From positions 1 to 64,000 of IMG/VR virus record IMGVR_UViG_3300042477_000445: a stretch of DNA of 64,000 bases, one strand, 5' to 3'. Below are positions 242 through 64,000 of the stretch, piece by piece. The notes beneath the pieces were generated by a model that worked only from the letters and a program-made list of their open reading frames with translations, made no database searches and was not told the origin of the DNA. This stretch comes from a virus. The position numbers were made by a program, and so were the translations under genes. Every line of letters starts with the position of its first letter. The stretch's first letter is position 1.

Positions 242-918
242 ATTGTCTAATATTAGCCAGAGGAGGAAGCAAAGGAGTTCCTGGTAAAAATATAAAATTA
301 TTAAATAATAAACCTCTTATAGCTTATCCGATAGAAGCGGCTATAAAATCCGAATATATAGATAACATTTATGTGTCAACAGATTCCGAAGAGATTGCAA
401 AAATAGCAATGAAATTTGGGGCAAAAATAATAGAGAGGCCGAAAGACTTGGCATCAGACAATTCATTAGATATTGATTCTTTTGTACATGCTGTTAAATA
501 TCTGAACGATTATCGAGACATTGTTCAGCTTAGAGCTACTACTCCAATACTAGATCCAAAAATAATAGATAAAGGAATAAATTTTTTCTTAGAAAATGAA
601 TTAGAATGTTCTTCTTTAAGATCTGCTCATGAATTTTCAGAATCTGTTTACAAATTTTTTAAACAAGATGGGAAATATTGGACAGGATTTTTTCCAGAAT
701 TATCTGGCGAATATTATAATATGCCAAGACAAAGTTTTCCGAAATCGTATCTTCCTAATGGATACATTGATATAGTCAGGCCTAAGATTTTTATGGATAA
801 AAAAACATTTCATGGAGACAAAATATTATCGTTTATAACCCCATACGCAATAGAAGTTGATACAGAGGAAGATTTTAAAAGATTAGAGGCAAAATATTCT
901 AATGATAAGCAAATATAG
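238..918 (+). CDS. neuA: CMP-N-acetylneuraminate (nonulosonate) cytidylyltransferase, NeuA family
   Basis: This 226-residue protein matches the usual length of the NeuA/PseF/LegF cytidylyltransferases, which join CTP to a nonulosonic acid to give a CMP-sugar in the cytoplasm. Near the N-terminus it has the CTP-binding signature ARGGSKGVPGKN with the conserved Arg and Lys. Further on it has STDSEEIA, the RPKDLASDNS segment and a QLRATTP stretch in the place of the family's QPTSP. NGYIDI near residue 175 fits the sugar-binding side. It overlaps both neighbours by a few bases. Which nonulosonic acid it activates (sialic, legionaminic, pseudaminic or Kdo-like) cannot be read from the sequence, and no NeuB-type synthase is visible in the window, so the acid may come from the host. 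Confidence 0.88.
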   Translation: MNCLILARGGSKGVPGKNIKLLNNKPLIAYPIEAAIKSEYIDNIYVSTDSEEIAKIAMKFGAKIIERPKDLASDNSLDIDSFVHAVKYLNDYRDIVQLRATTPILDPKIIDKGINFFLENELECSSLRSAHEFSESVYKFFKQDGKYWTGFFPELSGEYYNMPRQSFPKSYLPNGYIDIVRPKIFMDKKTFHGDKILSFITPYAIEVDTEEDFKRLEAKYSNDKQI

Positions 919-2179
919 AAAAATTAATAAAGATTTTAAATTAATTGAAACAAAATATGATAAAGATCGTAAAAAAAATGAACCGTCTTGTATAAGAAAT
1001 ACATTACCAATAATTTGGAATAAAGCTAAGAATTTTGTTGTTTATGACGAAGAAGATAATTCTTGGATAGATATGACATCTGGAATCTTTGTATCAAACG
1101 CTGGACATGCTAATAAAAAAATTGGTAAAGCAATAAAAAAACAAATAGATTCTGAGCTTTACTTCTCTTTTCTATATGATACAAAGATAAGAAATGATTT
1201 AATTAATAAGATTTTAGATATTTCTCCAAAATACTTTAATAAAGTTGTTTTAGCTAGTACCGGAACAGAAGCTACTGATTTATCTTATAAATTAATAAAA
1301 TATTGGGCTAAAAATAATAATAAAAAATATATTGTGACATTTAGAGGTAGTTATCATGGTAGAGCTTTAAGTTGCGATTTATTTAGTGGAAATGAAAAAA
1401 GCTCTGATTGGGCAAGAGTAACAGATGAAGAGATAGTATTTATTGATTTTCCATACGATCAATCTTCGGAATTTAATCCGAAGGATTTACCGCCAGCAAA
1501 TGAAATTGCAGCTTTTTTTTTAGAAACATATCAAGGATGGGGAGCTTGGATGTATCCAAAAAAATACATCAAAGAATTATATGACTTTGCTAGACAAAAT
1601 GGAGCGTTGGTATGTTTTGATGAGATACAATCTGGTTTTTATAGAATGGGCACTCTTTATGGTTATGAAACATATGGAGAATATTTACAACCGGATTTAA
1701 TTTGCGTTGGTAAAGGTATTACATCATCGCTTCCTTTATCTGCTGTTATAACAAAGAAAGAACTTACTGAGAATAATATTAATATGGGTTTGGGGGGAAC
1801 ACATTCTGGTAATCCATTGTGTTGTGCAGCTGCTATGGCTAATCTAGATTTTTTAACAAATAAAAAGTTTCAAAAAAAATTAGCAAATAATGTTGATATT
1901 TTTGAAGAATGTTGTTATAGTTTATTAAATATTGATATAGTAAAGAATATCAATGTTAAAGGTATGGTAGCGGGATTAATTTTTAAAGATGCAGAAATTG
2001 CCGACAAAATAGTTTTTGAATGTGTATACAATGGTGTGTTGCCGGTAAGAACATATAAAAATTCAATTAAGTTAGCTCCTCCTCTTACGATTAATAAGGA
2101 AGCAATTTTAGAAAGTTTTAACGTTATTAAAGATGCTATAATTAAGGTACAATCAGAATGTTTAGACACGTTGGAATAG
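902..2179 (+). CDS. class III PLP-dependent aminotransferase
   Basis: The 425 residues have the usual length and motif order of the glutamate-1-semialdehyde / ornithine aminotransferase fold. DMTSGIFVSNAGH lies near the N-terminus, ASTGTEATD binds the PLP phosphate, FRGSYHGR carries the ring-stacking region, FDEIQSGFYRMG holds the Asp that pairs with the pyridine nitrogen, and CVGKGITSSLP holds the lysine expected to form the Schiff base. GGTHSGNPLCCAAA follows as usual. The start overlaps neuA by 17 bases. The context suggests it adds an amino group to a keto sugar or related surface-glycan precursor. The substrate is not determined, and most sugar aminotransferases belong to the DegT family instead, which makes this one unusual for such a cassette. 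Confidence 0.85.
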   Translation: MISKYRKINKDFKLIETKYDKDRKKNEPSCIRNTLPIIWNKAKNFVVYDEEDNSWIDMTSGIFVSNAGHANKKIGKAIKKQIDSELYFSFLYDTKIRNDLINKILDISPKYFNKVVLASTGTEATDLSYKLIKYWAKNNNKKYIVTFRGSYHGRALSCDLFSGNEKSSDWARVTDEEIVFIDFPYDQSSEFNPKDLPPANEIAAFFLETYQGWGAWMYPKKYIKELYDFARQNGALVCFDEIQSGFYRMGTLYGYETYGEYLQPDLICVGKGITSSLPLSAVITKKELTENNINMGLGGTHSGNPLCCAAAMANLDFLTNKKFQKKLANNVDIFEECCYSLLNIDIVKNINVKGMVAGLIFKDAEIADKIVFECVYNGVLPVRTYKNSIKLAPPLTINKEAILESFNVIKDAIIKVQSECLDTLE

Positions 2180-2571
2180 TTGTAAAAGATCTAGAAAAGC
2201 AATTAAAATTTTATAGGGATTTACTTAGCCTAGAAGTATATTATAGTGAAGTAGAAAAAGGATATTTTTTAGAAAACTTAATAGGCGTAGAAGGAGCTTC
2301 GCCCTTAATATATAAGCTTGGAAAAAATAATAAAATTATTGTTGAATTGTTGTTTTTTGGGAATGGAAATGAAGTAGAAAAAAAAATAACAACATATGGT
2401 TTAACTCATTTCGCAATTAATGTTGATGATATAGAGAAACTTTATATGCAAATGATAGACAGCGGAATAAAATTTATAAGTGCTCCATTGTTATCAAATG
2501 ATAAAAAAGTAAAAGTATGTTTTTGCCAAGATTATGAATCAAATTATATAGAATTAGTTGAGGTTTTATAA
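2158..2571 (+). CDS. glyoxalase/VOC-superfamily protein (epimerase-like)
   Basis: The 137-residue protein shows the two beta-alpha-beta-beta-beta halves of the vicinal oxygen chelate fold. Candidate metal ligands are His4 (FRHVGIVV), a Glu in VELLFF, the His in LTHFAINV and the Glu in YIELVEVL, in the order seen in methylmalonyl-CoA epimerase and glyoxalase I. It overlaps the aminotransferase by 22 bases, so translation is probably coupled. It may epimerise or isomerise an intermediate of the same sugar pathway. The substrate is unknown. Confidence 0.75.
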   Translation: MFRHVGIVVKDLEKQLKFYRDLLSLEVYYSEVEKGYFLENLIGVEGASPLIYKLGKNNKIIVELLFFGNGNEVEKKITTYGLTHFAINVDDIEKLYMQMIDSGIKFISAPLLSNDKKVKVCFCQDYESNYIELVEVL

Positions 2572-2575
2572 TAAA

Positions 2576-3352
2576 ATGAAATTGGGAATTATTCAAGGTA
2601 GATTAAGTGCTCCTGTAAATAACCATATACAAGAATTTCCGTATGAAAAATGGAGAGAAGAATTTAATTTATTAAATAAATTAAATTTAAATCATGTTGA
2701 GTGGATAATAACTAAAGATAGCTATAATACAAATCCGTTATTTAATAGTGATCTTAAAAATTTTAAAATTAGTTCAATATGTTGTGATCATATAATTGAC
2801 GATAAAATCGAAATTTTTTCTTACCTATATGACAATTTATTAAATGTGTGTAAATTTGCTACTAAAAATAACATAAATTATATAAGCATCCCTTTACTAG
2901 AACAAAGTAATATGGAGTCGGACACCAGAAGAAATGAATTTATAAAGTCTATATTAAAAATCAAAGAATTAACCGGAGATACTAAATTTATTTTTGAAAC
3001 AGAGCTAACACCAGAAAAATCTTTAGAAATAGTAAGCTCACATAAAGATTTTTATATTACATATGATACTGGTAATGTTAATTCATATCTAAAAGAACAT
3101 GAAAAATATATTAAAATTTTGCAACATAAAATTATAAATGTTCATCTTAAAGATAGAACTTTTGATGCCAAAACTGTTATTCCTTTTACTGGTGATACAA
3201 ATTTTGATCAAATATTTAAATTTTTAAAGGAAATAAATTATAATTCAATGTATACTCTTCAAATAGCAAGAGGAATTACTGGACAAGAAGAAGCGCATAT
3301 TATATACTACAAAAATAAATTTAAGGAATTACATGATAAATACTTTATTTAA
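2576..3352 (+). CDS. sugar phosphate isomerase/epimerase-like TIM barrel
   Basis: I place the start at the ATG at 2576, giving MKLGIIQGRLSAP, because this N-terminus is characteristic of the xylose-isomerase-like (AP endonuclease 2) TIM-barrel family. An upstream TTG at 2558 would overlap the previous gene. The 258 residues alternate strands and helices, with candidate metal ligands in FIFETEL, YITYDTGN and NVHLKDR, in the positions where this family places Glu, Asp and His. Its place between a VOC protein and an SDR points to a role in making an unusual sugar or polyol. The exact reaction is not known. Confidence 0.72.
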   Translation: MKLGIIQGRLSAPVNNHIQEFPYEKWREEFNLLNKLNLNHVEWIITKDSYNTNPLFNSDLKNFKISSICCDHIIDDKIEIFSYLYDNLLNVCKFATKNNINYISIPLLEQSNMESDTRRNEFIKSILKIKELTGDTKFIFETELTPEKSLEIVSSHKDFYITYDTGNVNSYLKEHEKYIKILQHKIINVHLKDRTFDAKTVIPFTGDTNFDQIFKFLKEINYNSMYTLQIARGITGQEEAHIIYYKNKFKELHDKYFI

Positions 3353-4148
3353 TTTGTCTGGTAAAACAGCATTTATAACCGGTGGTGGCGGATTACTTGG
3401 ACCCAAACATGCAGAAGCAATTATAGAATGTGGAGGTAATGTAATTTTATGTGATATTGATCATAATACAAAATTAGTAGCAGATAATTTGAATAACAAA
3501 TATAATAGAGAATGTGCTACATTTGTATATGGAGATGTTTGTAATAAGTTATCGATAGAAAAAGCTCTTGAAAGCATAGATAAAATAGATATCTTAATTA
3601 ATAATGCAGCAAAAGATCCGAAAGTAAAAAAAGATAATAATATTAATGTAGAGACTAGGTTTGAAACAATGTCACAGGAATATTGGCAGGAAGGAATAGA
3701 CGCCATTATTAATGGAACTTTTATTTGTTCGCAAGCCGTTTGTAATAAGATGCTACAAACAGGAGGAGGAGTTATTTTAAATATTGCATCAGATTTATCA
3801 GTAATTGCTCCTGATCAAAGGATTTATAAAAAAGAAAATCTTAAAGATGATCAGCAACCTGTAAAACCAATAACATATTCTGCGGCAAAATATGCAGTAG
3901 TTGGAATGACAAAATATCTTGCAGTTTATTTTGCCGATAAAAATATAAGAGTAAACTGTTTAAGCCCAACTGGTGTATATAACGATCACCCAGAAGAATT
4001 TGTATCTAAACTTTCTAATATAATTCCAATGAGAAGAATGGCAGATATAGACGAATACAAGGGAGCAGTTGCTTTTATGTGCTCTAATGCCAGTAGTTAT
4101 ATGACTGGACATAATCTTATAATTGATGGTGGAAAGACGGTCTGGTAA
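3333..4148 (+). CDS. short-chain dehydrogenase/reductase
   Basis: This is a classical SDR of 271 residues. It has an N-terminal Rossmann glycine motif (TGGGGLLG), the NNAA motif after strand 4, a catalytic Ser in NIASDLS, and the Tyr-Lys pair in TYSAAKYAV. The C-terminus carries the usual IRVNCLSPTG and YMTGHNLIIDGG segments. It should oxidise or reduce a hydroxyl or carbonyl with NAD(P)H. It overlaps the preceding isomerase gene by 20 bases and its stop overlaps the next ATG, so it is part of the same tightly coupled operon, presumably acting on the same sugar. Confidence 0.88.
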   Translation: MINTLFNLSGKTAFITGGGGLLGPKHAEAIIECGGNVILCDIDHNTKLVADNLNNKYNRECATFVYGDVCNKLSIEKALESIDKIDILINNAAKDPKVKKDNNINVETRFETMSQEYWQEGIDAIINGTFICSQAVCNKMLQTGGGVILNIASDLSVIAPDQRIYKKENLKDDQQPVKPITYSAAKYAVVGMTKYLAVYFADKNIRVNCLSPTGVYNDHPEEFVSKLSNIIPMRRMADIDEYKGAVAFMCSNASSYMTGHNLIIDGGKTVW

Positions 4149-4990
4149 TGTTAAAATTAGATTACAAACAAATATTAGATAAAAATAAAAATATGCCTGC
4201 CTTTGTTTGCGCTCACGGTCCTAGCTTGAAAAAATATGCAAAGATTATAGAAGAAAAACAAGAAGAGGGTTTTATAAGAGTTTCGGTTAATGATTGGTGG
4301 AATTTTTTCAAAATGCCCCCAGATTATTGCTGTTTAGCAAACTCTGAATTAACAATAGATAAATATATCAATAGAGATGATACAAAAGATGTTATGTTTT
4401 TTTATGCTGATTCTGTTGATGGTACAGGTAGAAAAAAAATAATAGATTCTAAATTAAATGTATTTGGATATGATCAGCGACATTTTAAAAATAAAGATTG
4501 TAAATTGATTATTGAGGATTATTTAAGTTTTAAAGATAAAAGCAATTTTTTAGAATATGGAAATAATAATATAATGTGGCACGACGGGAGAGATGCACCA
4601 GAAGTGGGATTTGCTGGATTTAACCAGTTTGGATATTGTTGCACGCAAAAAATAACTAATAGACCAACTGTGCAAGAATATTTACAAAAAATTTCTAAAA
4701 CAAAACAACATTATAGTACCGGAGATACTGTAGCATTACATGCTATTTCTTTTGCAATAATTTTAGGGCTTAATCCAATATATGTATGCGGATTAGATTT
4801 AAATTATAAACTTGGCTATGCAAATGGCAATAGTTGTCCATATCAAGATGATGAATGGAATAAATTTAAAAATAATACATTAAATGACTTAAATATACTT
4901 AATGAATCTGCAGCAAATAGGGAAATAAAAATTATAAATTTAACTCAAAATCCTTGGTATGGTAATATATTTGAAATTGGAGAAATATGA
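4148..4990 (+). CDS. DUF115 / GT42-like protein, candidate sialyl- or nonulosonate transferase
   Basis: In this 280-residue protein the early FVCAHGPSLKKY segment and the later STGDTVALHAISFAIILG followed by NPIYVCGLDLNY resemble the motif layout shared by DUF115 (MptE-like) proteins and the GT42 sialyltransferases such as Campylobacter Cst-II. In those families GNGPSL binds the CMP moiety and a helix plus GxDxxY follows. That reading is from memory of the families and not from a search. A CMP-sugar synthetase lies in the same operon, so a transferase using the CMP-sugar is an attractive inference. The order of motifs is visible; the activity is not proven. Confidence 0.55.
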   Translation: MLKLDYKQILDKNKNMPAFVCAHGPSLKKYAKIIEEKQEEGFIRVSVNDWWNFFKMPPDYCCLANSELTIDKYINRDDTKDVMFFYADSVDGTGRKKIIDSKLNVFGYDQRHFKNKDCKLIIEDYLSFKDKSNFLEYGNNNIMWHDGRDAPEVGFAGFNQFGYCCTQKITNRPTVQEYLQKISKTKQHYSTGDTVALHAISFAIILGLNPIYVCGLDLNYKLGYANGNSCPYQDDEWNKFKNNTLNDLNILNESAANREIKIINLTQNPWYGNIFEIGEI

Positions 4991-5301
4991 TTATTTATGT
5001 TGACATAGACGAAACTATTTGTGAGAATGAAGAAAGTAGGGATTATTCCAAAGCACTTCCAATTAAAGAAAATATAAAAAAAATAAATAAATTATATGAC
5101 GAAGGTAACACAATAATTTATTGGACAGCCAGAGGAACCACAACTCAAATAGACTGGTCAGAAATTACAAAAAAACAGTTTATTGATTGGGGAGTCAAAT
5201 ATCATGATTTAAAATTTGGAAAGCCATATTATGATTTGTTTGTTTGTGATAAAGCTATAAATTCTAATTTATTTTTCAAAGGAGAAAAATATGCCCATTA
5301 A
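4987..5301 (+). CDS. small HAD-superfamily phosphatase (capsule/LPS type)
   Basis: The 104-residue protein begins with MIIYVDIDETI, the DxDxT nucleophile motif of HAD phosphatases. It has the motif II Thr in WTARGT and a C-terminal GKPYYDLFVCDKAI that supplies the Lys and the acidic motif. Short cap-less HADs like this one are common in capsule and lipopolysaccharide loci, where they remove phosphate from a sugar intermediate. The start overlaps the preceding stop (ATGA). Confidence 0.8.
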   Translation: MIIYVDIDETICENEESRDYSKALPIKENIKKINKLYDEGNTIIYWTARGTTTQIDWSEITKKQFIDWGVKYHDLKFGKPYYDLFVCDKAINSNLFFKGEKYAH

Positions 5302-5861
5302 TTTTGATATTAAAAAATATTCAAAAAATAAAAAAGTTTATATAGAAACAGGATTTTTTAAAGGAGAATCTACAGAAATAGCATTTAAAGCGAATTTTGA
5401 AGAAGTACATAGTTGTGATATAAATGAAGTTTTTTTAGAAGAAGGAAGAAAAAAATTTTCTCATGAAGTTTTAAATAAAAAATTATTTTTGCATTTTGGC
5501 AGATCAACTGATGTTCTAGAAAAAATCTTACAAGATTTAAATAACGAAGCAGTTTTTTCTAGATGCTCACGATATAACATATAAAGGAACAGAAACAGAA
5601 AAATGGAACGAACAAGATGCTTGTCCCATAATGCTTGAATTAAATTTAATTAAAGAACATAAAATCAAAAATCATACAATAATAATTGATGATATTAGGA
5701 TGTTTAGCTACGGATGTACACCTGGAACTTGGGCATACGAGAAAAGTATAACTCCAAAGCATTTATATAATAAATTAAAAGAAATAAATAAAAATTACCA
5801 TATTACACTAGAAGATGGCATTTGCGAAAGAGATGTTATGATTACTTATATAAGAGAATAA
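5291..5861 (+). pseudogene. methyltransferase-like gene split by a frame shift at a T run
   Basis: Two reading frames, 5291-5584 and the frame ending at 5861, join into one sensible protein of about 190 residues if one T is skipped in the six-T run at 5553-5558. The upstream frame ends in a poor tail after NNEAVF. The +1 frame reads through as FLDAHDITYKGTETEKWNEQ and then NHTIIIDDIRMF. The N-terminal part (YIETGFFKGEST, a Rossmann-like glycine motif, then VHSCDINE) and the LDAH segment look like a class I SAM methyltransferase-like fold. No in-frame stop intervenes in the joined frame. Either the gene is broken, or a base was miscalled in the homopolymer, or a +1 ribosomal shift is used. The substrate is unknown. 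Confidence 0.7.
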
Positions 5862-5864
5862 AAT

Positions 5865-6773
5865 ATGAAAAATTTTTTAATTACCGGCGGTTCTGGCATG
5901 GTAGGAAATGCCTTTAAAAATCTCCTACCAAACGCAGAGTATATATCAAAAGAACAACTACATGATTTTTCTTATATCATAAAAGATAAATTTATTATTC
6001 ATTTAGCAGCTAAAGTCGGAGGCGTAAAAGCTAATACAGATTTTGTTTCAGATTTTTATACGTATAACTCAGAGATAAATCAAAAAGTATTAGATTACGC
6101 GAGGATTGGTAAAGCCAAGAAAGTTGTCTCACTTCTTTCTACTTGTGTATACCCAGATGCACTATATGTAACCTATCCCCTTACGGAAAATCAGTTGCAC
6201 ATGGGACCACCACATGAATCGAATTTTGGTTATGCATATGCTAAAAGAATGGTTGATGTTATGTCTAGAGCCTACAGGCAACAGTATGGCTGTAATTTTA
6301 TAACAGCTATTCCAAATAATCTTTACGGAGAAAATGACAATTTTGATTTAGAAAATAGCCATGTTCTACCAGCTTTGATTCGTAAAATTTGGGAAGCAAA
6401 AATAAATAATCAGCACTCAGTTGAGGTTTGGGGCGATGGATCACCCTTGAGAGAGTTTACATATTCAGAGGATATAGTGAAAATTCTCATTTTTCTTCTT
6501 GAAAATTATAATGAGTCAGAACCAATTAACATAGGAAATACAGAAGAATACTCCATAAAAGAGGTTGTTCAGTTGTTATGCGAATTATTGAATTATGATG
6601 GAAAAATAAATTGGAACATAAACAAACCAAATGGGCAGTATAGAAAGCCAAGTAGTAATAAAAAACTACTTGATTTAGGCTGGGAAAAAGAAAACTATAC
6701 CTCTCTAAAAGAAGGACTAAAAAAAACTTGTGATTGGTTTATAATAAATTATCCAAATGTAAGAGGAATATGA
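5865..6773 (+). CDS. fcl: GDP-L-fucose synthase (GDP-4-keto-6-deoxymannose 3,5-epimerase/4-reductase)
   Basis: This 302-residue extended SDR has the NAD(P) motif TGGSGMVG at the N-terminus. It then has the family-specific HLAAKVGGVKAN, the ESNFGYAYAKR segment with the YxxxK catalytic pair, and PNNLYGENDNFDLENSHVLP, which is close to diagnostic of Fcl/WcaG. It converts GDP-4-keto-6-deoxy-mannose to GDP-L-fucose in the cytoplasm. The next gene, gmd, makes its substrate, and the two overlap by ATGA. The pair is a known auxiliary module of several large phages and of host O-antigen loci. Confidence 0.93.
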   Translation: MKNFLITGGSGMVGNAFKNLLPNAEYISKEQLHDFSYIIKDKFIIHLAAKVGGVKANTDFVSDFYTYNSEINQKVLDYARIGKAKKVVSLLSTCVYPDALYVTYPLTENQLHMGPPHESNFGYAYAKRMVDVMSRAYRQQYGCNFITAIPNNLYGENDNFDLENSHVLPALIRKIWEAKINNQHSVEVWGDGSPLREFTYSEDIVKILIFLLENYNESEPINIGNTEEYSIKEVVQLLCELLNYDGKINWNINKPNGQYRKPSSNKKLLDLGWEKENYTSLKEGLKKTCDWFIINYPNVRGI

Positions 6774-7762
6774 AGACAGCTTTTATAACGGGCATAACTG
6801 GTCAAGATGGTTCATACTTAGCAGAACTATTGCTAAATAAGGGATATAAAATAATAGGTTTAAAAAGAAGAACATCACTTATTTGCACTGACAGAATTGA
6901 TCATGTGTTTGAAAATTCTAATTTTAAACTCGAATACTTCGATTTAAATGATGTTGGAAGTATTTATCGCTTACTTCTACAGTATAAACCCGATGAATTT
7001 TATAATTTGGCTGCTCAATCACATGTTAAAGTGTCGTTTGAGTTGCCAGAAAACACCGTTGACGGTATTGCAATGGGCACCATGCGCCTTCTTGAAGCTG
7101 TTAGGAATGTTCATCCAACTTGTAAATTTTATCAAGCATCATCCTCAGAAATGTATGGAGATAATCCAAACTATCCCTATAATGAGGAATCAAGATTTAT
7201 GCCAGCTTCTCCATATGCGAATGCAAAAGTTTTTGCACATCAGCTCATGAGAAACTACCGAAAATCCTATGGTATGTTTTGCTGTGGTGGTATTCTTTTT
7301 AATCACGAATCACCACGTAGAGGCGAAACGTTTGTCACCCGAAAAATTACCATTGGAGCCGCCAAAATCGCCCTAGGAATTGAGAAAGAATTACGATTGG
7401 GTAATCTTGACGCTTACAGGGATTGGGGATTTGCGGGGGATTATGTTGAGGCTATGTGGTTGATGCTTCAACAAGAAGAAGCAGATGACTATGTAATAGC
7501 AACAGGAAAAACCTATTCAGTTAGAGAATTCTGTAAACTAGTGTTTGAATATGCAAGCTTAGGTGATTATCAAAACTATGTGGTACAAGATCCTAAGTAC
7601 TTTAGACCACACGAAGTCCCATATCTTCTTGGAAATCCATCTAAGGCAAAAGAAAAACTTGGGTGGGAACCAAAAACAGATATAAAAAATCTTGTAAAAA
7701 TGATGTATGATGAGGACTTCAATAGGATTAGAAATGAAATACGAATTATGGGAAATGGGTAG
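6770..7762 (+). CDS. gmd: GDP-mannose 4,6-dehydratase
   Basis: I take the start at the ATG at 6770 (MKTAFITGITGQDGSYLAE), preceded by AGAGG, over upstream in-frame starts inside fcl. This gives 330 residues, the usual Gmd length. Clear motifs are TGITGQDGSYL for NADP, ASSSEMYG, SPYANAK (YxxxK), NHESPRRGETFVTRKI and DAYRDWGFAGDYV. It dehydrates GDP-D-mannose to GDP-4-keto-6-deoxymannose, which fcl then converts to GDP-fucose. The gene has a somewhat richer GC content in its middle than the genes upstream. GDP-mannose presumably comes from the host. Confidence 0.95.
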   Translation: MKTAFITGITGQDGSYLAELLLNKGYKIIGLKRRTSLICTDRIDHVFENSNFKLEYFDLNDVGSIYRLLLQYKPDEFYNLAAQSHVKVSFELPENTVDGIAMGTMRLLEAVRNVHPTCKFYQASSSEMYGDNPNYPYNEESRFMPASPYANAKVFAHQLMRNYRKSYGMFCCGGILFNHESPRRGETFVTRKITIGAAKIALGIEKELRLGNLDAYRDWGFAGDYVEAMWLMLQQEEADDYVIATGKTYSVREFCKLVFEYASLGDYQNYVVQDPKYFRPHEVPYLLGNPSKAKEKLGWEPKTDIKNLVKMMYDEDFNRIRNEIRIMGNG

Positions 7763-7892
7763 TTATGGTACTGGAGATTTCGAGCCATTATTATTAAATG
7801 AAAGATTTGATAATTTTATGGACGCATATTTTGCATTTCAAAAATTAATAAAAACCATACCTTGCTGTATTATATTGAACAAAGGAGTATAA
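7734..7892 (+). CDS. small hypothetical protein
   Basis: From the ATG at 7734 it encodes 52 residues (MKYELWEMGSYGTGDF...). It overlaps the end of gmd by 29 bases in another frame. An upstream in-frame ATG at 7707 would lengthen the overlap and has no better ribosome site. I recognise no family. The aromatic and acidic composition and the close packing to the next gene (1 base) support it as a real small phage gene. Confidence 0.5.
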   Translation: MKYELWEMGSYGTGDFEPLLLNERFDNFMDAYFAFQKLIKTIPCCIILNKGV

Positions 7893-7893
7893 A

Positions 7894-8094
7894 ATGAACT
7901 ACAAAGTAAACGACATAATATACTTTAATGAGCAAGAATATGGCAAAATATTGGAAATTAAGTACAATAAAAAATATTGTTTTGAAGAAATTTTATTTGA
8001 AAATTTTATAACAAACAATAATGACATTTGTTATAAAAGAGATCTAAGAATAGATAAAAACAATAAATTACAATATTATCCACAAGGAGATTAA
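7894..8094 (+). CDS. small hypothetical protein
   Basis: This 66-residue protein of mixed charge starts with MNYKVNDIIYFNEQEYGKI and is preceded by a good ribosome site (AAAGGAG, 7 bases before the ATG). The N-terminal strand pattern VNDIIYFN...YGKILEI resembles small SH3-like or KOW-like beta barrels, but that is only an impression. No function can be assigned. Confidence 0.65.
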   Translation: MNYKVNDIIYFNEQEYGKILEIKYNKKYCFEEILFENFITNNNDICYKRDLRIDKNNKLQYYPQGD

Positions 8095-8095
8095 A

Positions 8096-8311
8096 ATGAA
8101 ATTAGCACCACAAGCACATGCAGCAATTATGATGTGTTTACAAAAATGTATTATGGAAGAAACAGACATTCGCCCACTACTGGACGATCTTGATTTTATT
8201 GTCGATGATGATCAACCAGAATTTCTAATTGTTACTAATCCGCCTACTTTTAAAGTAAGCGAAGAAGTAAAAGAAGTAGTTGAAGAAAAGGCATTCCAAT
8301 GGAAAGAGTAG
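8096..8311 (+). CDS. small acidic hypothetical protein
   Basis: The 71 residues start MKLAPQAHAAIMMCLQKCI with AGGAG just upstream. The N-terminal half is a probable helix and the rest is acidic (DDLDFIVDDDQPEF, EEVKEVVEE). It overlaps the downstream cupin gene by 13 bases. The family is not recognised. Coupling with the cupin suggests common expression and nothing more. Confidence 0.65.
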   Translation: MKLAPQAHAAIMMCLQKCIMEETDIRPLLDDLDFIVDDDQPEFLIVTNPPTFKVSEEVKEVVEEKAFQWKE

Positions 8312-8649
8312 AAAAACCTTGGGGTTATGAAATAATCTGGGCTAAAACTGATAAATATGTAGGAAAGATTATAAGGATCAATCCAGGACATAGACTGTCT
8401 TTACAATATCATGAAAATAAATTAGAGACAATATATGTTAATGAAGGAACGTTAGAATTAATTTTAAAAAATAATAATGATATTTTTTCTAATATTTTAA
8501 CAAAGGGGGAATCTTATCATATTCCAAATAAAATGATTCATAGATTTTCTTGTCCTGCTTGGTGCTCTAACGGAGTAGAGCTGATAGAAGTATCAACACC
8601 AGAATTAAATGATGTTATCAGATTAGAAGATAGTTATGGAAGGTCATGA
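8299..8649 (+). CDS. cupin, mannose-6-phosphate isomerase type II-like
   Basis: The 116-residue single cupin domain starts ERVEKPWGYEIIW and has the metal-binding stretch PGHRLSLQYHENKLET. It then has YHIPNKMIHRF and ends with GVELIEVSTPELNDVIRLED. This matches the phosphomannose isomerase domain that forms the C-terminus of ManC (GDP-mannose pyrophosphorylase/PMI). In bifunctional ManC this domain interconverts fructose-6-P and mannose-6-P. A stand-alone copy near gmd and fcl is consistent with feeding the GDP-mannose branch. It could also be a related sugar-modifying cupin. Confidence 0.82.
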   Translation: MERVEKPWGYEIIWAKTDKYVGKIIRINPGHRLSLQYHENKLETIYVNEGTLELILKNNNDIFSNILTKGESYHIPNKMIHRFSCPAWCSNGVELIEVSTPELNDVIRLEDSYGRS

Positions 8650-56810: not shown

Positions 56811-58640
56811 ATGGCAAGTATAGTCGAAAGATTAACAGAAAATATTGTTGAAAGAAATCTCCTTCGTGAAGGCGCTGCCCTCTCAAAGAAATGGGAAAGA
56901 ACAGGTCTTCTAGAAGGAATCGATAGTGAGATGACAAAGACAACCATGTCTCGTCTTCTCGAAAATCAAGCAAAGGAACTACTCCGCGAAGCTTCCACAA
57001 TGTCCGCAGGTGACGTTGAAGGTTTCGCAGCAGTTGCATTCCCAATTGTTAGACGCGTATTCGGTGGTCTAATTGCAAATGAACTCGTTGCAGTTCAACC
57101 AATGAGCCTCCCAAGCGGTCTAATCTTCTTCCTTGATTTTACCTATAGCAATGACACAGGAAACAAAACATTCGCTGGTGCAGTCGGTGGCCAATCTATT
57201 TACGGCGGTAACGTTGTAGCTAGCCAAATCACTGGTGGTGTTAGCTTAACTGGTGTTGATGCAAGTGGCGTACAAAACCTAGAAAAGAGCTTCTACTCTT
57301 TAAATAACGGTTTCTCAAGCGTAACTGGCTCAAGAGTGCTTAATCATTCTTGGAATTATGGCAACGCTGGTAAGGCTGGTGCATCTTCTACGGTTGTTGT
57401 TTACCAAACTTCCAGCTGGACAGACGTTGGTCTATCAACTGCTACAGGTAGTTCATTAACTGGCTCAACAGATGCAGCGTTCGTCGCATACGATCCAGAT
57501 GTTCTTGCAGACACTTCTGCTTTAACATACCAAAAATTAAGACTATTCTTTGATTTGGGAACTTGGAATCAACTAGATAGAAATAATCTAGTAGCAATCA
57601 ACATTACTGGTTCAACAATTTCTGGTTCATTGGTTAGAAGACTAACTAAATTGGGTCCAGTAAGCCAATCTTTAGATGTAGTTGTTAAAACAGATGCTGG
57701 TGCTCCAATTTCAGAAGTTGGTGTTGCCCCATCTATTGCATCAACAACTTTTGCAATTAGGGATACATTAACAACTGGTAATTCTATAGGTTCTGTTCTT
57801 ACCGATCTATATGGTCTAGAAGGCGCTGGATCTGGTTCAACATTGAATGGTCAGGATATTCCTGGGGCTAACTTTACAATTCCAGAGATTGACATCAAAG
57901 TTGATAGCATCGCTGTAACAGCTCAAACCAAGAAACTCAAGGCCAAGTGGTCACCAGAATTAGGTCAAGACCTAAATGCTTACCATAATCTTGACGCCGA
58001 AGTTGAGTTAACAAGCATCCTCTCCGAGCACGTTGCTCTTGAAATCGATCAAGAAATCCTCAACGATCTCGTTAAGGGTGCAACAGCTGGTACTAAGTAC
58101 TGGAGCCGTAGACCAGGTAAGTTTGTCAACCGTGACACAGGTGCAAGCATCACATCAGTTGGTGCCCCACCAGACTTCACAGGTAATGTCAGCATGTGGT
58201 ATGAAACACTCATTGAAACAATCAATGACGTTTCTGCTCAAATCCACAGAAAGACAAGACGTGGTGGTGCAAACTTCCTCGTAACTTCACCAGAAGTTGC
58301 TAACCTCCTAGAGTTCACCTCTGGTTTCCGCGCTGATGTCAGCATGGAAGACCTAAAGGGCGGTTCAGTTGGCGCAGTCAAGGCTGGTAGCCTCAGCAAG
58401 AAGTTTGATCTTTATGTTGATCCATATTTCCCACGCAACCTAATCCTAGTTGGTCGTAGAGGCAAGGCATTCCTCGAAAGCGGTTATGTCTACGCTCCAT
58501 ACGTCCCACTAATGATTACACCAACAATCTTCGGTACAGAAGACTTTGTACCAAGAAAGGGTCTAATGACTCGCTACGCCAAGAAGATGGTTCGTCCAGA
58601 CATGTATGGCCTAGTAGTTTGCCAAGACCTAATTGGTTAA
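56811..58640 (+). CDS. major capsid protein, gp23-like
   Basis: The protein has 609 residues; T4 gp23 has 521. The N-terminus has the LLREGAALSKKWERTGLLEG leader and ENQAKELLREASTM, whose LRE-Ala junction (Glu60/Ala61) fits cleavage by the gp21-type protease at the same place as in T4 (Glu65). VEGFAAVAFPIVRRVFGGLIA and then NELVAVQPMSLPSGLIFFLDF are the best conserved gp23 segments. The end has LMTRYAKKMVRPDMYGLVV. The ribosome site AAAGGAG is strong, and both ends of the gene use more C-ending codons than its neighbours, as expected for very high expression. An intrinsic terminator follows. Confidence 0.96.
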   Translation: MASIVERLTENIVERNLLREGAALSKKWERTGLLEGIDSEMTKTTMSRLLENQAKELLREASTMSAGDVEGFAAVAFPIVRRVFGGLIANELVAVQPMSLPSGLIFFLDFTYSNDTGNKTFAGAVGGQSIYGGNVVASQITGGVSLTGVDASGVQNLEKSFYSLNNGFSSVTGSRVLNHSWNYGNAGKAGASSTVVVYQTSSWTDVGLSTATGSSLTGSTDAAFVAYDPDVLADTSALTYQKLRLFFDLGTWNQLDRNNLVAINITGSTISGSLVRRLTKLGPVSQSLDVVVKTDAGAPISEVGVAPSIASTTFAIRDTLTTGNSIGSVLTDLYGLEGAGSGSTLNGQDIPGANFTIPEIDIKVDSIAVTAQTKKLKAKWSPELGQDLNAYHNLDAEVELTSILSEHVALEIDQEILNDLVKGATAGTKYWSRRPGKFVNRDTGASITSVGAPPDFTGNVSMWYETLIETINDVSAQIHRKTRRGGANFLVTSPEVANLLEFTSGFRADVSMEDLKGGSVGAVKAGSLSKKFDLYVDPYFPRNLILVGRRGKAFLESGYVYAPYVPLMITPTIFGTEDFVPRKGLMTRYAKKMVRPDMYGLVVCQDLIG

Positions 58641-58663
58641 TCAACTAAGGGTTAATTAAGCAG

Positions 58664-58697
58664 AACCCCTGTCAGGGAAACTTGACAGGGGTTTTGT
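58664..58697 (+). terminator. intrinsic terminator after the major capsid gene
   Basis: AACCCCTGTCA (58664-58674) pairs with TGACAGGGGTT (58683-58693) around an 8-base loop, an 11-base perfect stem ending in TTTTG. It is the strongest hairpin seen in the window and isolates the capsid transcript from the envelope-protein genes. Confidence 0.92.
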
Positions 58698-58708
58698 GTT
58701 TCTGATAA

Positions 58709-58717
58709 ACTATTTAT
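58709..58717 (+). promoter_or_regulatory. candidate phage late promoter box for the envelope cassette
   Basis: ACTATTTAT follows the capsid terminator by 12 bases and lies 23 bases upstream of the ATG at 58732, with AAGGAG between. The box links the lipoprotein genes to the same late programme as the head genes. Confidence 0.65.
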
Positions 58718-58731
58718 CAAAAGGAGAAACT

Positions 58732-60603
58732 ATGAAAAAACTTTTATTATCTTTATTATTGTTGACTGCATGTGGCGACGATTTAGGTTGGGAACACAAA
58801 GAAACAAAACACGATTGTGCTGATGCAGTTGTTGGAGACAGCGGTGTTTGTAATTTATGTCAAGACGTAACGGAGACAAAAGATGAGCAATCTGGAACAG
58901 AAGAAGTTGTTAGCGATGTTGCTGACAGTACCCAAAGTGACGTTCTCGCTGACAGTGGGAGCGATGACGCTGACGTTTCTGTCCCTGATGGCGTTACAGG
59001 AACGGACACAGAAGATACGCAAGATGCACAAGATGTACCAGAAGATGTAACTCAGGACGTTGCTCCACCACCAGAATGTGTTACGGCGACCGATTGTGTC
59101 GTTATAGCTTTGCCTTGTGTGGCACCAGATTGCCAAGAAGGTAAGTGTGTTAAAGTTCCATTTGATACACCATGTTCCGATAATAATGAATGTACGGCAG
59201 GCGATCAATGCCAACTTGGTGTATGTGTTGCTGGTATTCAAATTAATTGTGACGATCTAGAATCTTGCACATTAGATTCTTGCGAGGCAGATAAAGGTTG
59301 CGTACATTTGCCAGTTGATGCAACTTGTGTCGATGGAGATGGTTGCACCGCAGAAGATATTTGCAAAGATGGTAAATGTGTAGGCGGTAAACCATTTAAT
59401 TGCGATGATGGAAATGTTTGCACAGATGATACTTGCGAGACATTTGGTAAGGATGAAATTCATGTTTGTAATCATTTGCCAAATCAAGCGACTTGTACAG
59501 ACAACGATGTTTGCACATTAGATGATGCCTGTGAGGGTGTTGTTTGCAAATCAAAAGCAGTTGCTATTTGTGATGATAATAATGTTTGTACAGACAATAC
59601 TTGCGATCCAGCAAATGGTTGTGTTTATTTAGCAAATGTAGCAACTTGTACCGACAATGACGCTTGTACTGTGAATGATTTATGCTCCGAAACTGTTTGT
59701 AAATCTGGATTAGTATTAAGTTGTGCAGATAATAATGAATGTACAACTGATCTATGCAAGTCAGAATCAGGTTGTTATTTTGAGAATAACACAAATGTTT
59801 GTAGCGATAATAATGTTTGTAGCATTGACGATAAGTGTGAGGCAGGATCATGTATTGCTGGCGCTCAAAAGGTTTGTGATGACGCTAATCTTTGCACCGT
59901 TGATTCATGTGATGCTGTAAATGGATGTGCTTCCGTAAATGCTGTTGATGGTACAAAATGTGCTGAAGGCGTCTGTAAAGACGGCTCTTGTGCTTGTGTA
60001 AGCGGGTTTGGCTGTGCTTTGCCTGCCTTCGTATATACTGGCGATGTGACTGCTGGTATGTTAGGAGGAATGGGTGGTGGTGTCGGTCCAAAGATGGGTT
60101 GCCCTGCTACTGATGTTTTAATCGGTTTAGGTTTTGATTTCAGTAATGGTCAAAAAACAGCCACTAGAACAACTGCCGTTTGTGGTAAAGTTACAATTGA
60201 ACAAAATGGAACTGTCATAACAACTCAAACAACTACACAAAAATCAGGTGGTTCTGGATGTTTTGGTTGGGATCCTTCAACTCCAACTCCGCTTGTAGTT
60301 TGCAAGAGTGGTTGGGCTGTTGTTGGTATTAAAGGCAAAAAACCCGGAGGCACTCTATTCAATTCTGTAAAAGTTGTTTGTGGTAAACTCGATGTTGCTG
60401 GCAAACCAACTGGCGAGACAGAAGTTTTAAATGTAGAAGGAACACTAGGCTCAGGTGTTGATCAAGAAGTATTATGCCCAGAAAAAACAATTGCTCGTTA
60501 TTTTGAGACAAGAGCTGGTTGTGGGCAAGATGCTTTGACTATGTATTGTGCTACTGCAACACCAGATTGTACTGGTCAAGAATTAATTTGTAAGGATTTA
60601 TAA
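58732..60603 (+). CDS. exported Cys-rich repeat lipoprotein with lectin-like C-terminus
   Basis: I choose the ATG at 58732 (AAGGAG upstream, signal peptide at once), giving 623 residues. MKKLLLSLLLLTAC is a lipoprotein signal with lipobox LTAC, and Gly at +2 suggests outer-membrane sorting. An Asp/Val/Thr-rich linker (about 50-120) precedes five repeats of about 50 residues (146-405) with CxDNNxCTxxDxC and CDDxNxCTxDxCDxxxGC units, the Dictyostelium CTDC type common in Myxococcota. The last 200 residues hold three similar blocks (C...VLIGLGF...VCGK; VCKSGWAVVGIKG...VVCGK; LCPEKTIARYF...YCA) that resemble a three-fold beta-prism lectin. Location: cell surface of a Gram-negative host. Role unknown. 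Confidence 0.8.
   Translation: MKKLLLSLLLLTACGDDLGWEHKETKHDCADAVVGDSGVCNLCQDVTETKDEQSGTEEVVSDVADSTQSDVLADSGSDDADVSVPDGVTGTDTEDTQDAQDVPEDVTQDVAPPPECVTATDCVVIALPCVAPDCQEGKCVKVPFDTPCSDNNECTAGDQCQLGVCVAGIQINCDDLESCTLDSCEADKGCVHLPVDATCVDGDGCTAEDICKDGKCVGGKPFNCDDGNVCTDDTCETFGKDEIHVCNHLPNQATCTDNDVCTLDDACEGVVCKSKAVAICDDNNVCTDNTCDPANGCVYLANVATCTDNDACTVNDLCSETVCKSGLVLSCADNNECTTDLCKSESGCYFENNTNVCSDNNVCSIDDKCEAGSCIAGAQKVCDDANLCTVDSCDAVNGCASVNAVDGTKCAEGVCKDGSCACVSGFGCALPAFVYTGDVTAGMLGGMGGGVGPKMGCPATDVLIGLGFDFSNGQKTATRTTAVCGKVTIEQNGTVITTQTTTQKSGGSGCFGWDPSTPTPLVVCKSGWAVVGIKGKKPGGTLFNSVKVVCGKLDVAGKPTGETEVLNVEGTLGSGVDQEVLCPEKTIARYFETRAGCGQDALTMYCATATPDCTGQELICKDL
59170..59950 (+). repeat. five tandem Cys-rich (CTDC-type) repeats
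   Basis: Five units of about 150 bases encode the pattern C(S/T/V)DxxxCTxxDxCxxxxCxxG...CDDxNxCTxDxCxxxxGC. The units start near 59170, 59326, 59494, 59644 and 59797. They have drifted in DNA sequence but keep all cysteines, so the repeat is under selection at protein level. All the cysteines are expected to be disulphide-bonded outside the cytoplasm. Confidence 0.8.
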
Positions 60604-60605
60604 CA

Positions 60606-61556
60606 ATGAAAAAACTGCTCTTAACTCTCTTTTTATTACTATTATCAAATACTGCCAATGCTTGGGAAGCAACAGTTGGGCTTGGTGGCTATGGTAGGAT
60701 TTTTGACGAAAAGGATCAGTTAGGAGCAGTTTCAAAACATGAAAGTTTAATTCCAGAATTTTCAGGTGGGTTGGCATTGAATGGATCATTTCTGTTTGAT
60801 GCCAGCCCTTCTTTTAGAATTGGTCCAGATTTAATGCTTGGATACGGCTGGTTGTCTGCCCAAGTAAATGAAAGGTTTGGAACAAGTTTGCAAAATCAAA
60901 CTATTATTACCTCTCTAAATGTTCAGTATCAAATTTATGATTTTAGAGTTTCTGTAAAGCCCGGCTTTGTTGTCAATACTCTAACCGCTGGATACACAGA
61001 TAAAATTGACTCTGACACAGGTTTCTCTTCGTCCTTAAGATTTTCAACGGATCTATTTTCATCAGCAAGATTTTTTTTTGAGCCACAGGTTTTATTCTCT
61101 CCCTCTGTAGAATCAAAGAATTCTTTTGTTCCATCGTATAGTTTAACTTTGGGCTTTGAAAAAATCTTTTCGCCAAAGAAGGTTCCTGCTCCCGTTGTGG
61201 AGAAACCAGTAGAAGTAAAGCCAGCAGTGAAAACACCAGAACCAGTTGTTGAACCTATTAAACTTCCAGAACCAGCAACCCCAGTTAAGCAACCAGATCC
61301 ACCAGTTAAAGTTGAGGAAACTAAAGTAGAACCTCAATTAAATGTTGAGTCAAAAGGATACTTGGAAAACATATTAAAGGTTCATAAAGTATTAAAATCA
61401 TCCATTAAAATAATTTATAGTGAAGATAAGATTCTTAAAGAAAAGGCAGAAAAATTAGCAACTTGGTTTGCAGAGCGTGGAGTAAGTAAAGAAGATATTG
61501 TTCTAACAAACACGCTTGAAACAAAAGGCATAAGAATAGAAATTCTCAAAAAGTAG
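60606..61556 (+). CDS. outer-membrane beta-barrel protein with degenerate OmpA-like C-terminus
   Basis: The protein has 316 residues. The signal peptide is KKLLLTLFLLLLSNTANA, probably cut before WEATVGLGG. Residues 20-195 alternate short amphipathic strands (SGGLALNGSFLFDAS, RVSVKPGFVVNTLTAGYT, SYSLTLGFEKIF), which suits an 8-stranded barrel. A Pro/Val/Lys-rich linker (about 196-245) reaches a C-terminal part with KEKAEKLATWFAERGVSKED and IVLTNTLETKGIRIEI, resembling the end of an OmpA peptidoglycan-binding domain but lacking its usual Asp and Arg pair. It lies 2 bases behind the Cys-rich lipoprotein gene, so the two are co-translated. Confidence 0.72.
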   Translation: MKKLLLTLFLLLLSNTANAWEATVGLGGYGRIFDEKDQLGAVSKHESLIPEFSGGLALNGSFLFDASPSFRIGPDLMLGYGWLSAQVNERFGTSLQNQTIITSLNVQYQIYDFRVSVKPGFVVNTLTAGYTDKIDSDTGFSSSLRFSTDLFSSARFFFEPQVLFSPSVESKNSFVPSYSLTLGFEKIFSPKKVPAPVVEKPVEVKPAVKTPEPVVEPIKLPEPATPVKQPDPPVKVEETKVEPQLNVESKGYLENILKVHKVLKSSIKIIYSEDKILKEKAEKLATWFAERGVSKEDIVLTNTLETKGIRIEILKK

Positions 61557-61562
61557 GATAAT

Positions 61563-63626
61563 ATGTTAAAGAAAATAATACCGCTTTTATTTTTAGTCTC
61601 CTGTTCGCAAGAGACAGCAGCGCCCACTATTCAAGGGGGCATTGGCTTTGACATACAGCAAGACACCACCATCATTGTTAAAGATATAGAACAACCAGAT
61701 GTTATTGAATCAGACACAGAACCAGTGGAAGATACACAGGTAGAAGACGCGGAAAATGACCTAGAAAATACGGAAATAATAGAAGTAGAAGAAGATGCGG
61801 TCGAAGATGTTGAGCCTCCTGTAGAGGACACAGAAGAGCCTGAATGTATTGATGAAGACGGCGATGGGTTTGGTGAAAACTGCAACTTTGGTATTGATTG
61901 CGATGACTTCAATCCAAACTTTGGAGATGTATGCCCAGATTGCTCAAAGGCTGGAACTATAGGCTGTACTTGTTCTGGCAAGCCTTTATCGTGTTATGAA
62001 TACGATCCAGCGACAGTAGGAAAAGGCTTGTGTAAAAAAGGTCAGCAATTATGTACAGACGGCTTCTGGAAAGCATGTAGCGGGAGCATTGGACCAGCAC
62101 CAGAACTCTGCGACTTCAAAGACAACGACTGCGATGGCGAAACAGACGAGGGCGTAAAATCAACTTGTGGTAATTGTGATCTAACTTGTAATCAACAAAC
62201 TATTGGTTCTGGTGGTAAAGGATGGAATCTAAATAGTGAAAATGCTACAGGGCTTGGTTTGGATCCACAAGGTAATGTAACTCTTGATTTATCAGCGATC
62301 TCGCTCAACTTGAAGTTTATTTGGATCGCAAACTCACCAAATAACACTGTATCCAAAGTTGATTGTAAGACCATTACAGAAGTTGGTAGATTCCAAGTTT
62401 GCTCAGACCCTTCAAGAACTTCTGTTGACCTTGAGGGAAATGTTTGGGTTGCTTGCCGTGGCGATGGTGCCGTAACAAAAATTATCGCAGATAAAACAAA
62501 ATGTGCTGATAAAAACGGCAATGGTATTATTGAAACATCGACAAGCTCACAGCCAATAGGCAATGATGAGTGTATCAAGTTTATTGTAAACCCCGGCAAA
62601 GGATCTTATGCTAGAGGTGCCGCTGTAGATAAAGAAAATCATGTATGGATAGGTTATTGGAACCAAAAAACAATGGTTCGTCTTAATGCCAACACTGGCG
62701 CAACGATGACGGAAATTCCATTGGGTGTATCGCCCTATGGTTTAGTAATTGACCAAAAGGGAATGATCTGGGCGCAAGGTGAGTTCAACACGCTGGTCAT
62801 GATAGACCCTTTGACACAAGTCGTTACAAAGAATAATACCTTACCACAACTAAAGTTCCCTGCTAGTGCTTACGGGCTTAATGTAGATAAGTATGGTCGT
62901 TTGTGGGTTGCTTCGGGCAACAAAGCATCTGTTTATGATCCCAAGACATTACAATGGAAGGTCGTTAACATGAACTGGGGTGGTGGTCGTGGTGTTGCTA
63001 CATCAAATGATGGTTATACTTATGTCGCCGTAGATGGTTCAGGCGGGGCAGTAAAAATAAATGGCAATGTTGATCCACCACAAGTAGAAGGTTTTATCAA
63101 GGGAGCAGGAAGCCCTGTCGGTGCTGCTATTGACTATGATGGTTTTGTTTGGGTCGTAAATCAAGGTGGTTCAAGCGCAACAAAGATGGATCCAAATACA
63201 ATGTCTGCGGTAGGAACTGTTTCAGTTGGTTCATCTCCATACACATACTCAGACATGACTGGTTATACTCTAAACTACTTTACTGCGCCAAAAGGTCAAT
63301 ACAGCACAGTATTCTTTGGAAGTGTATCATCAAACCCAATAACAACTTCCACAATGAAACAAGTGTGGCAGTCAATTTCAGCAGAAGCGGATCTTCCAGA
63401 AGGGACAGCATTGAGGTTTAGATTAAGAGCGGGCAATACAAAAGTAGAACTAGAAAATGCTAAATGGTCTGAGCCTATTGATTTTCCGCCAGAAGTATTT
63501 CCTTATGATCTTACCAAGGCAAATATTATCGGCAACATGCTACAAGTTGAAATACAGTTGACAACAAAAGATAAAAAGGTTGCTCCAACTCTAAAATCTA
63601 TAACGGCGAAGTCCAAACTGATTTAA
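61563..63626 (+). CDS. MopE-like lipoprotein with beta-propeller
   Basis: The protein has 687 residues. MLKKIIPLLFLVSC is a lipoprotein signal (lipobox LVSC, Ser at +2). Residues 25-93 are an acidic linker. Two metal-binding-like Cys/Asp motifs follow, CIDEDGDGFGENC near 94 and LCDFKDNDCDGETDEG near 180, of the MopE/thrombospondin type frequent in Myxococcota. Residues 205-540 form an NHL/Vgb-like propeller with repeated (V/I)D..G.(V/I)W(V/I)A blades, for example TSVDLEGNVWVACRGDGAVT, AAVDKENHVWIGYWNQ and AAIDYDGFVWVVNQGG. The last 140 residues are a separate beta domain. It is 6 bases behind the barrel gene. Role unknown; exported and surface-anchored. Confidence 0.8.
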   Translation: MLKKIIPLLFLVSCSQETAAPTIQGGIGFDIQQDTTIIVKDIEQPDVIESDTEPVEDTQVEDAENDLENTEIIEVEEDAVEDVEPPVEDTEEPECIDEDGDGFGENCNFGIDCDDFNPNFGDVCPDCSKAGTIGCTCSGKPLSCYEYDPATVGKGLCKKGQQLCTDGFWKACSGSIGPAPELCDFKDNDCDGETDEGVKSTCGNCDLTCNQQTIGSGGKGWNLNSENATGLGLDPQGNVTLDLSAISLNLKFIWIANSPNNTVSKVDCKTITEVGRFQVCSDPSRTSVDLEGNVWVACRGDGAVTKIIADKTKCADKNGNGIIETSTSSQPIGNDECIKFIVNPGKGSYARGAAVDKENHVWIGYWNQKTMVRLNANTGATMTEIPLGVSPYGLVIDQKGMIWAQGEFNTLVMIDPLTQVVTKNNTLPQLKFPASAYGLNVDKYGRLWVASGNKASVYDPKTLQWKVVNMNWGGGRGVATSNDGYTYVAVDGSGGAVKINGNVDPPQVEGFIKGAGSPVGAAIDYDGFVWVVNQGGSSATKMDPNTMSAVGTVSVGSSPYTYSDMTGYTLNYFTAPKGQYSTVFFGSVSSNPITTSTMKQVWQSISAEADLPEGTALRFRLRAGNTKVELENAKWSEPIDFPPEVFPYDLTKANIIGNMLQVEIQLTTKDKKVAPTLKSITAKSKLI

Positions 63627-63629
63627 CAA

Positions 63630-63638
63630 ACTATTTAT
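63630..63638 (+). promoter_or_regulatory. candidate phage late promoter box before the transglycosylase gene
   Basis: ACTATTTAT begins 4 bases after the stop of the propeller gene and lies only 13 bases before the ATG at 63643. The short distance and the missing ribosome site would give a leaderless or near-leaderless message if this box works as at the other sites. Confidence 0.5.
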
Positions 63639-63642
63639 AGTA

Positions 63643-64000
63643 ATGTTAGTTATTTTTAAGCTGAGTTTCTGGATCAGCTTATTGTTCTCTTGTAGACCAG
63701 TAGATCCAGTAATAAGCAACAAAATAATTGATTCAGTTGAGTTTCAGGAATCGAGAGGTGTAGCTTCTGTAAGAGATAATGGTTATTGTGTTGGGTTAAT
63801 GCAGATAGATAGAAGATATTCTCCAATACAAAAACCTTATTTAAAAATTCCTTATCTCAATCGAATCATTGGCGTGCGAATGCTTCGATATTGGCATAAG
63901 CAGGCGAGAGGTGATATGAATCATGCTCTTGCGGCCTATAATTGTGGATATGCTGGATTAAATACCACTTGCGGTTCTGGATATGCCAGCGCCGTTTTAA
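63643..64000 (+). CDS. lytic transglycosylase lipoprotein (SLT family), cut by window end
   Basis: The visible part is 119 residues and the frame is still open at base 64000. MLVIFKLSFWISLLFSC is a lipoprotein signal with lipobox LFSC. The SLT fold signs follow: VEFQESRGVAS with the catalytic Glu, GYCVGLMQIDRRY (the GLMQI motif), and HALAAYNCGYAGL (AYNxG). It would cleave peptidoglycan from the periplasmic side while anchored to the outer membrane. No ribosome site precedes the ATG, but downstream starts would remove the signal. It may be a lysis or entry enzyme of the phage. Confidence 0.82.
   Translation, partial: MLVIFKLSFWISLLFSCRPVDPVISNKIIDSVEFQESRGVASVRDNGYCVGLMQIDRRYSPIQKPYLKIPYLNRIIGVRMLRYWHKQARGDMNHALAAYNCGYAGLNTTCGSGYASAVL

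Follow-up and report, generated by a model that had tools for sequence, protein, structure and literature searches.

What are three genes for exported, envelope-type proteins doing directly behind the major capsid gene of a T4-like phage? The question arises in IMG/VR virus record IMGVR_UViG_3300042477_000445, from which the window (the whole stretch analysed here, 64,000 nucleotides) was taken; the record itself is 74,862 bases long, and in the part beyond position 64,000 it carries neck and sheath genes. Family matches to gp23 capsid, portal, terminase, prohead protease and sheath proteins place the phage among the T4-like phages. Behind its capsid gene, at 58732-63626, lie three tightly packed genes, hereafter the triad, encoding a lipoprotein with CTDC repeats and a beta-prism tip (gene 1), a barrel/OmpA-like protein (gene 2) and a MopE-like propeller lipoprotein (gene 3) (Table 1). 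Our tentative reading, held with somewhat less than even confidence, is that they form a module inserted into the phage genome, whose products are exported to the outer envelope and act late, at about the time of lysis.

Three genes inserted between capsid and SLT

A sequence-only reading of this DNA had described four consecutive genes for exported products, with gaps of only 2 and 6 bases between the first three. The spacing was as described, and all four products carry export signals: two lipoboxes (LTAC and LVSC) and one type-I signal (on the barrel protein) within the triad, and the lipobox LFSC on the SLT lipoprotein that follows. The set itself, however, comprises three genes. In L202, L205, L206 and L208, whose capsids are 70-78% identical to the window capsid, the order is capsid-SLT-neck without the triad (with one extra small gene in L208), and these empty-site relatives rule out SLT as a fourth cassette member. 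L205 has the same terminator, identical in sequence, then one box variant and then SLT, whereas the window triad sits exactly between two AAACTATTTAT boxes, the second of which, at 63629, is SLT's own. SLT is a resident phage gene between capsid and neck and stands outside the triad. A further 72 loci found by capsid similarity have recognisable capsid and neck genes, and none of them has the triad at this site.

We infer that the triad was placed by modular exchange at promoter-terminator units. Comeau et al. (2014) reportedly described such exchange in T4-like phages as PeSL promoter-terminator shuffling. The window resembles that system in having a module bounded by terminator/promoter units in a T4-like genome, and differs in that its box belongs to the head and tail genes.

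The domains are of Myxococcota type, as expected if the region were host chromosomal DNA or a misassembled contig. Two contigs of other metagenomes (L002 and L003), however, are 100% identical to the region, junctions included, and diverged copies occur in L005 and L200, which excludes a misassembly at about 58.65 kb. The triad region has phage genes on either side, and the record runs on into neck and sheath genes. We therefore give this explanation a negligible probability. A host locus of four such genes was looked for and none was seen; the barrel and beta-prism proteins were each found in 0 of 22 genomes of the order that carries the propeller, in searches that had no positive control in that order.

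The sequence-only reading had also placed the cassette behind a terminator, which is present with 17 pairs, and linked it to a late promoter. Eight copies of the box ACTATTTAT lie on the plus strand of the record and none on the minus strand, against a chance expectation of about one plus-strand copy per whole record. Seven of the eight copies fall within the 915 non-coding bases of the record (1.2% of the sequence; P about 3e-13), and most lie 12-35 nt ahead of an open reading frame (ORF), with one at 189 nt. The box also precedes the prohead core gene (54971) and the sheath gene (66774 of the record), and the pattern recurs in two related genomes, G005 and G006. It is a genuine promoter-like element of the phage group, specific to one strand, and the genes that it serves make it a probable late promoter. 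The promoter link was thus upheld in part: the box occurs far beyond chance and one copy stands ahead of the window triad, but the triad of L005 starts 9 bases after an SbcC-like gene with no box in front, so the link is not general. As ACTATTTAT or CTATTTAT, the strand-specific box is seen ahead of prohead and sheath genes in G000, G005 and G006.

Table 1. Positions of the triad and its borders in the window
Feature	Position	Strand	Details
Major capsid protein gp23	56811..58640	+	PF07068, 235 bits; phrog_138; 5' border of cassette
Intrinsic terminator 3' of capsid gene	58660..58697	+	17 pairs, loop 4, T-rich tail
Promoter-like box AACTATTTAT ahead of triad	58708..58717	+	Strand-specific, non-coding
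Gene 1 lipoprotein	58732..60603	+	623 amino acids, 64 Cys; Asp-rich linker, five CTDC repeats, C-terminal beta-prism domain
Beta-prism domain of gene 1	60022..60600		Last 193 residues
Gene 2 protein	60606..61556	+	Signal peptide, barrel-like middle of about eight strands, Pro-rich linker, OmpA/Pal-like end (residues 243-316)
Gene 3 lipoprotein	61563..63626	+	687 amino acids; acidic linker, MopE-like motif, beta-propeller
Second AACTATTTAT box, ahead of SLT	63629..63638	+	3' border of inserted triad
SLT lipoprotein	63643..64000 (ends 64158 of record)	+	171 amino acids; SLT transglycosylase family PF01464, 33.5 bits (cut-off 21.3)

Two further lipoproteins were seen in other contigs. At the same site as the triad, behind the capsid of another T4-like relative, L088:3269-4213 encodes a VWA-like lipoprotein, and L210:4435-4650, in another SLT-bearing contig, encodes a small Asp-rich lipoprotein similar to the acidic linkers of the triad.

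Domain content and host origin

Both the five CTDC repeats and the lectin-like end proposed for gene 1 were recovered. PF00526 (Dicty_CTDC) matches in five stretches with 68.5 bits against a cut-off of 27, and the repeats form a Cys-rich stalk. The last 193 residues give a fair predicted model (predicted local distance difference test, pLDDT, 78; predicted template modelling score 0.80) with a beta-prism fold, aligning with VMO-I (1vmo) at Z 14.3 over 142 residues (root-mean-square deviation 2.6) and with jacalin-type lectins at Z about 13 (Foldseek E=3e-4). The likeness is to the fold of these proteins, with which sequence identity is 9-21%, and no significant VOMI or Jacalin match was found in Pfam for the phage proteins. 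A beta-prism homologue with 47-48% identity was found in G010 only; its VOMI match (E=0.023, 15.3 bits) lies under the cut-off of 25. A GxxxD-like stretch, GCGQDAL, is kept in three phage proteins and reads GAGQDAL in G010. Our literature search found no bacterial or phage work on Dicty_CTDC and no paper on phage lectin lipoproteins.

Gene 2, proposed to be a barrel/OmpA-like protein, is best called OmpA-like, though unproven. Foldseek ranks full-length E. coli OmpA first among its matches (E=3e-3), its predicted end (residues 243-316) aligns with OmpA/Pal structures at Z 6-8, and it weakly matches the outer-membrane barrel family NF049866 (E=2e-4). It appears to share with OmpA/Pal/YfiB a signal, a barrel-like middle, a Pro-rich linker and an OmpA-like end, but it is phage-carried and has no Pfam OmpA match. 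The OmpA-like end is acceptable, whereas the whole-protein model is poor (pLDDT 42), with a strand pattern that fits a barrel.

For gene 3, the propeller of the proposed MopE-like propeller lipoprotein is clear (SGL, PF08450, 38.1 bits versus a cut-off of 26.3), and Pizza and PknD propellers match its profile. The MopE motif (PF11617), by contrast, scores 22.4 bits, under the cut-off of 27, and the L005 copy likewise falls under that cut-off. Cellular homologues reach 73% identity and have the whole architecture in common with the phage protein, from lipobox and acidic linker through MopE-like motif and propeller to the C-terminal region; the phage copies differ in being AT-rich and in lying in phage operons. 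Of the 22 genomes covered from one small order, whose founding metagenome-assembled genome (MAG) is placed in Myxococcota by NCBI, 15 encode such a homologue; across the phylum the count is 21 of 379, and every one of the best hits falls within that order, the order of G001 (MAG VGRO01). The neighbours of these genes show no consistent function.

Phylogenetic analysis placed the propellers of the window, L007 and L105 in one clade, sister to cellular sequences, and that of L005 inside another, mainly cellular clade. A single phage clade, and with it one origin of the phage propellers, was rejected by the approximately unbiased (AU) test (p=2.7e-7). The two positions and this rejection indicate that phages took the propeller from Myxococcota at least twice, and nesting in the tree together with the distribution of homologues argues for transfer from host to phage. 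The tree thus backs the host origin of the one protein, among those described as Myxococcota-type, to which it applies. The nonsynonymous rate is far below the synonymous rate, and composition is AT-rich (GC content at third codon positions 0.21-0.40, versus GC-rich host loci); both suggest genes kept as working phage genes.

Giant CTDC proteins are massively expanded in the Myxococcota genome G001, which has 252 matches to the CTDC-repeat region. Because of the propeller captures and this expansion, the order of G001, a little-known group of Myxococcota, appears to be the most likely host group. To our knowledge, few Myxococcota phages have been described.

Copies in other phages and their lysis-gene neighbours

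The layout had been called unfamiliar among phages, and a comparison with 50,697 phage records returned no match for any of the three triad proteins. Relatives were found elsewhere. L004 and L005 have a diverged copy of the triad (71/50/51% identity), with the SbcC-like gene on one side and the terminase genes on the other. In L005 a box variant comes next, together with the gene for an endolysin that has a peptidoglycan-binding domain; after these stand an Rz-like gene, one for an exported protein and a holin-like gene. L200 belongs to a 101-kb contig from another myovirus, with different terminase, head and sheath families; its order is endolysin, a protein of 78 amino acids, CTDC, barrel, holin-like, with the propeller absent. 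L105 and L007 (the latter ending at a contig edge) have the propeller at the capsid/neck site without an adjoining lysis gene, and no match to the CTDC or barrel protein was found in the 115-kb record of L105. The lysis link therefore belongs to the CTDC-barrel pair and not to the propeller. The pair has the look of a core associated with lysis blocks, and the propeller that of an optional, seemingly host-matched addition.

Several observations accompany these copies. More distant phage contigs (L108-L112 and the 191 kb contig G390) encode MopE-repeat lipoproteins with a VWA-like domain at the C-terminal end (for example L110:9650-11614), together with small Cys-rich lipoproteins and barrel genes; L108 also has a VanY endolysin nearby, and L109 an exported SLT protein. 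In several relatives, an exported protein whose C-terminus holds a membrane segment is encoded near the SbcC-like gene (L005:16322-17163; G005, in reverse orientation, 1554-2461; G390:104104-104544). Directly 3' of the Rz-like gene in two relatives, it possibly forms an unusual spanin pair with it.

A proposed late role at the outer envelope

Outer-membrane action at lysis, a block to superinfection and remodelling of the cell surface had all been put forward as jobs for these proteins, and they remain the leading candidates. Decoration of released particles, also put forward, was set aside as the main explanation, since heads are put together in the cytoplasm and the signal peptides and lipoboxes direct these proteins to leave it. 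Our preferred reading, held with a little less than even confidence, is that the triad remodels the outer envelope at the late or lysis stage, most likely through masking of the host surface, which would spare progeny and block superinfection. The CTDC/beta-prism lipoprotein and the barrel protein would be exported to the outer membrane, where the OmpA-like end of the latter would hold peptidoglycan and the beta-prism tip would bind surface glycans, while the captured propeller would substitute for the host's own surface lipoprotein. Phage adsorption targets would in this way be masked or replaced; progeny would not be lost by binding to a dying cell or to cell debris, and infection by other phages would be prevented.

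This reading is favoured by the precise position of the inserted triad between two boxes, by the finding of these genes in several phage lineages and by the lysis genes that accompany the CTDC-barrel pair in two of them. Masking would explain both the lectin-like tip and the host-matched propeller, by analogy with T5 Llp, a phage outer-membrane lipoprotein that blocks the receptor and thereby brings about superinfection exclusion (PMC9586334). The likeness is one of proposed role: both are phage-encoded lipoproteins with a proposed receptor-blocking, progeny-protecting job, but Llp is periplasmic and binds FhuA, whereas the triad proteins are multi-domain and stand in a late or lysis context. 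Several points weigh against masking. Llp is small and early-acting and the triad proteins are large; sugar binding by the beta-prism tip may hold but is not proven by its fold; exposure at the surface, as opposed to the periplasmic face, is assumed; the whole-barrel model of gene 2 was too poor to use; and the propellers of L105 and L007 adjoin no lysis gene.

The lysis-block position is fitted equally well by disruption of the outer membrane, and sequence does not separate the two. Here the CTDC lipoprotein and the OmpA-like barrel would supply an accessory, spanin-like step that breaks or loosens an outer envelope heavily coated with protein, after endolysin action on the wall. This main rival, which we consider rather unlikely, draws on L200 and L005, where the CTDC-barrel pair has endolysin and holin-like genes around it, on an OmpA-like end that could bind peptidoglycan and on presumed hosts as rich in CTDC-repeat segments as G001. 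SLT is also the next gene in the window, although as a resident it is there partly by accident. Two-component spanins (Rz/Rz1) likewise include a lipoprotein and share the lysis-block neighbourhood, but differ in domain content and are far smaller than the triad lipoproteins of 623 and 687 amino acids, which do not belong to that class. L005 already has a separate Rz-like protein and an exported partner. Inspection of ORFs in the window revealed no Rz-like gene adjoining the triad. Disruption also leaves the host-matched propeller unexplained.

A role in adhesion, aggregation or cell contact during infection, apart from lysis or exclusion, would suit the lectin-like fold, the surface-type lipoproteins and the repeated capture of a host surface protein; the late-type box and the lysis-block positions, however, leave little time for it in a lytic cycle, and we regard it as improbable. 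That the genes are useless passengers caught by chance is far less probable still. The host origin of the propeller is clear and most relatives lack the genes, yet these show phage-like AT-rich composition, purifying selection and two captures, are tightly packed behind a promoter-like box, are conserved across lineages and are intact in all copies.

Beyond masking, a broader possibility, which we consider doubtful although a real chance, is an undescribed lysis-stage system for coated Gram-negative hosts. The lectin-tipped CTDC lipoprotein and the OmpA-like barrel would act as a two-protein outer-envelope unit, moving between unrelated phages in company with endolysin/holin-like blocks and adapted to each host by taking up its propeller lipoprotein. 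Phage-made envelope proteins are already known as a kind; the literature searched yielded no example of this domain set, of its capture from a host or of its link with lysis blocks. The locus adds a beta-prism, lectin-like lipoprotein to the known phage exports, a case of repeated phage capture of a host surface lipoprotein and, for one group of T4-like phages, a link to a host that is drawn from sequence. It also offers a compact gene set with which to test how infection proceeds at the outer envelope of coated Gram-negative cells.

Two observations by eye lie outside the triad. L200:14739-16058 (minus strand) encodes a reverse-transcriptase-like protein, and AT-rich genes at 238-8649 of the window, upstream of the structural genes, resemble those for nucleotide-sugar or surface-sugar enzymes.

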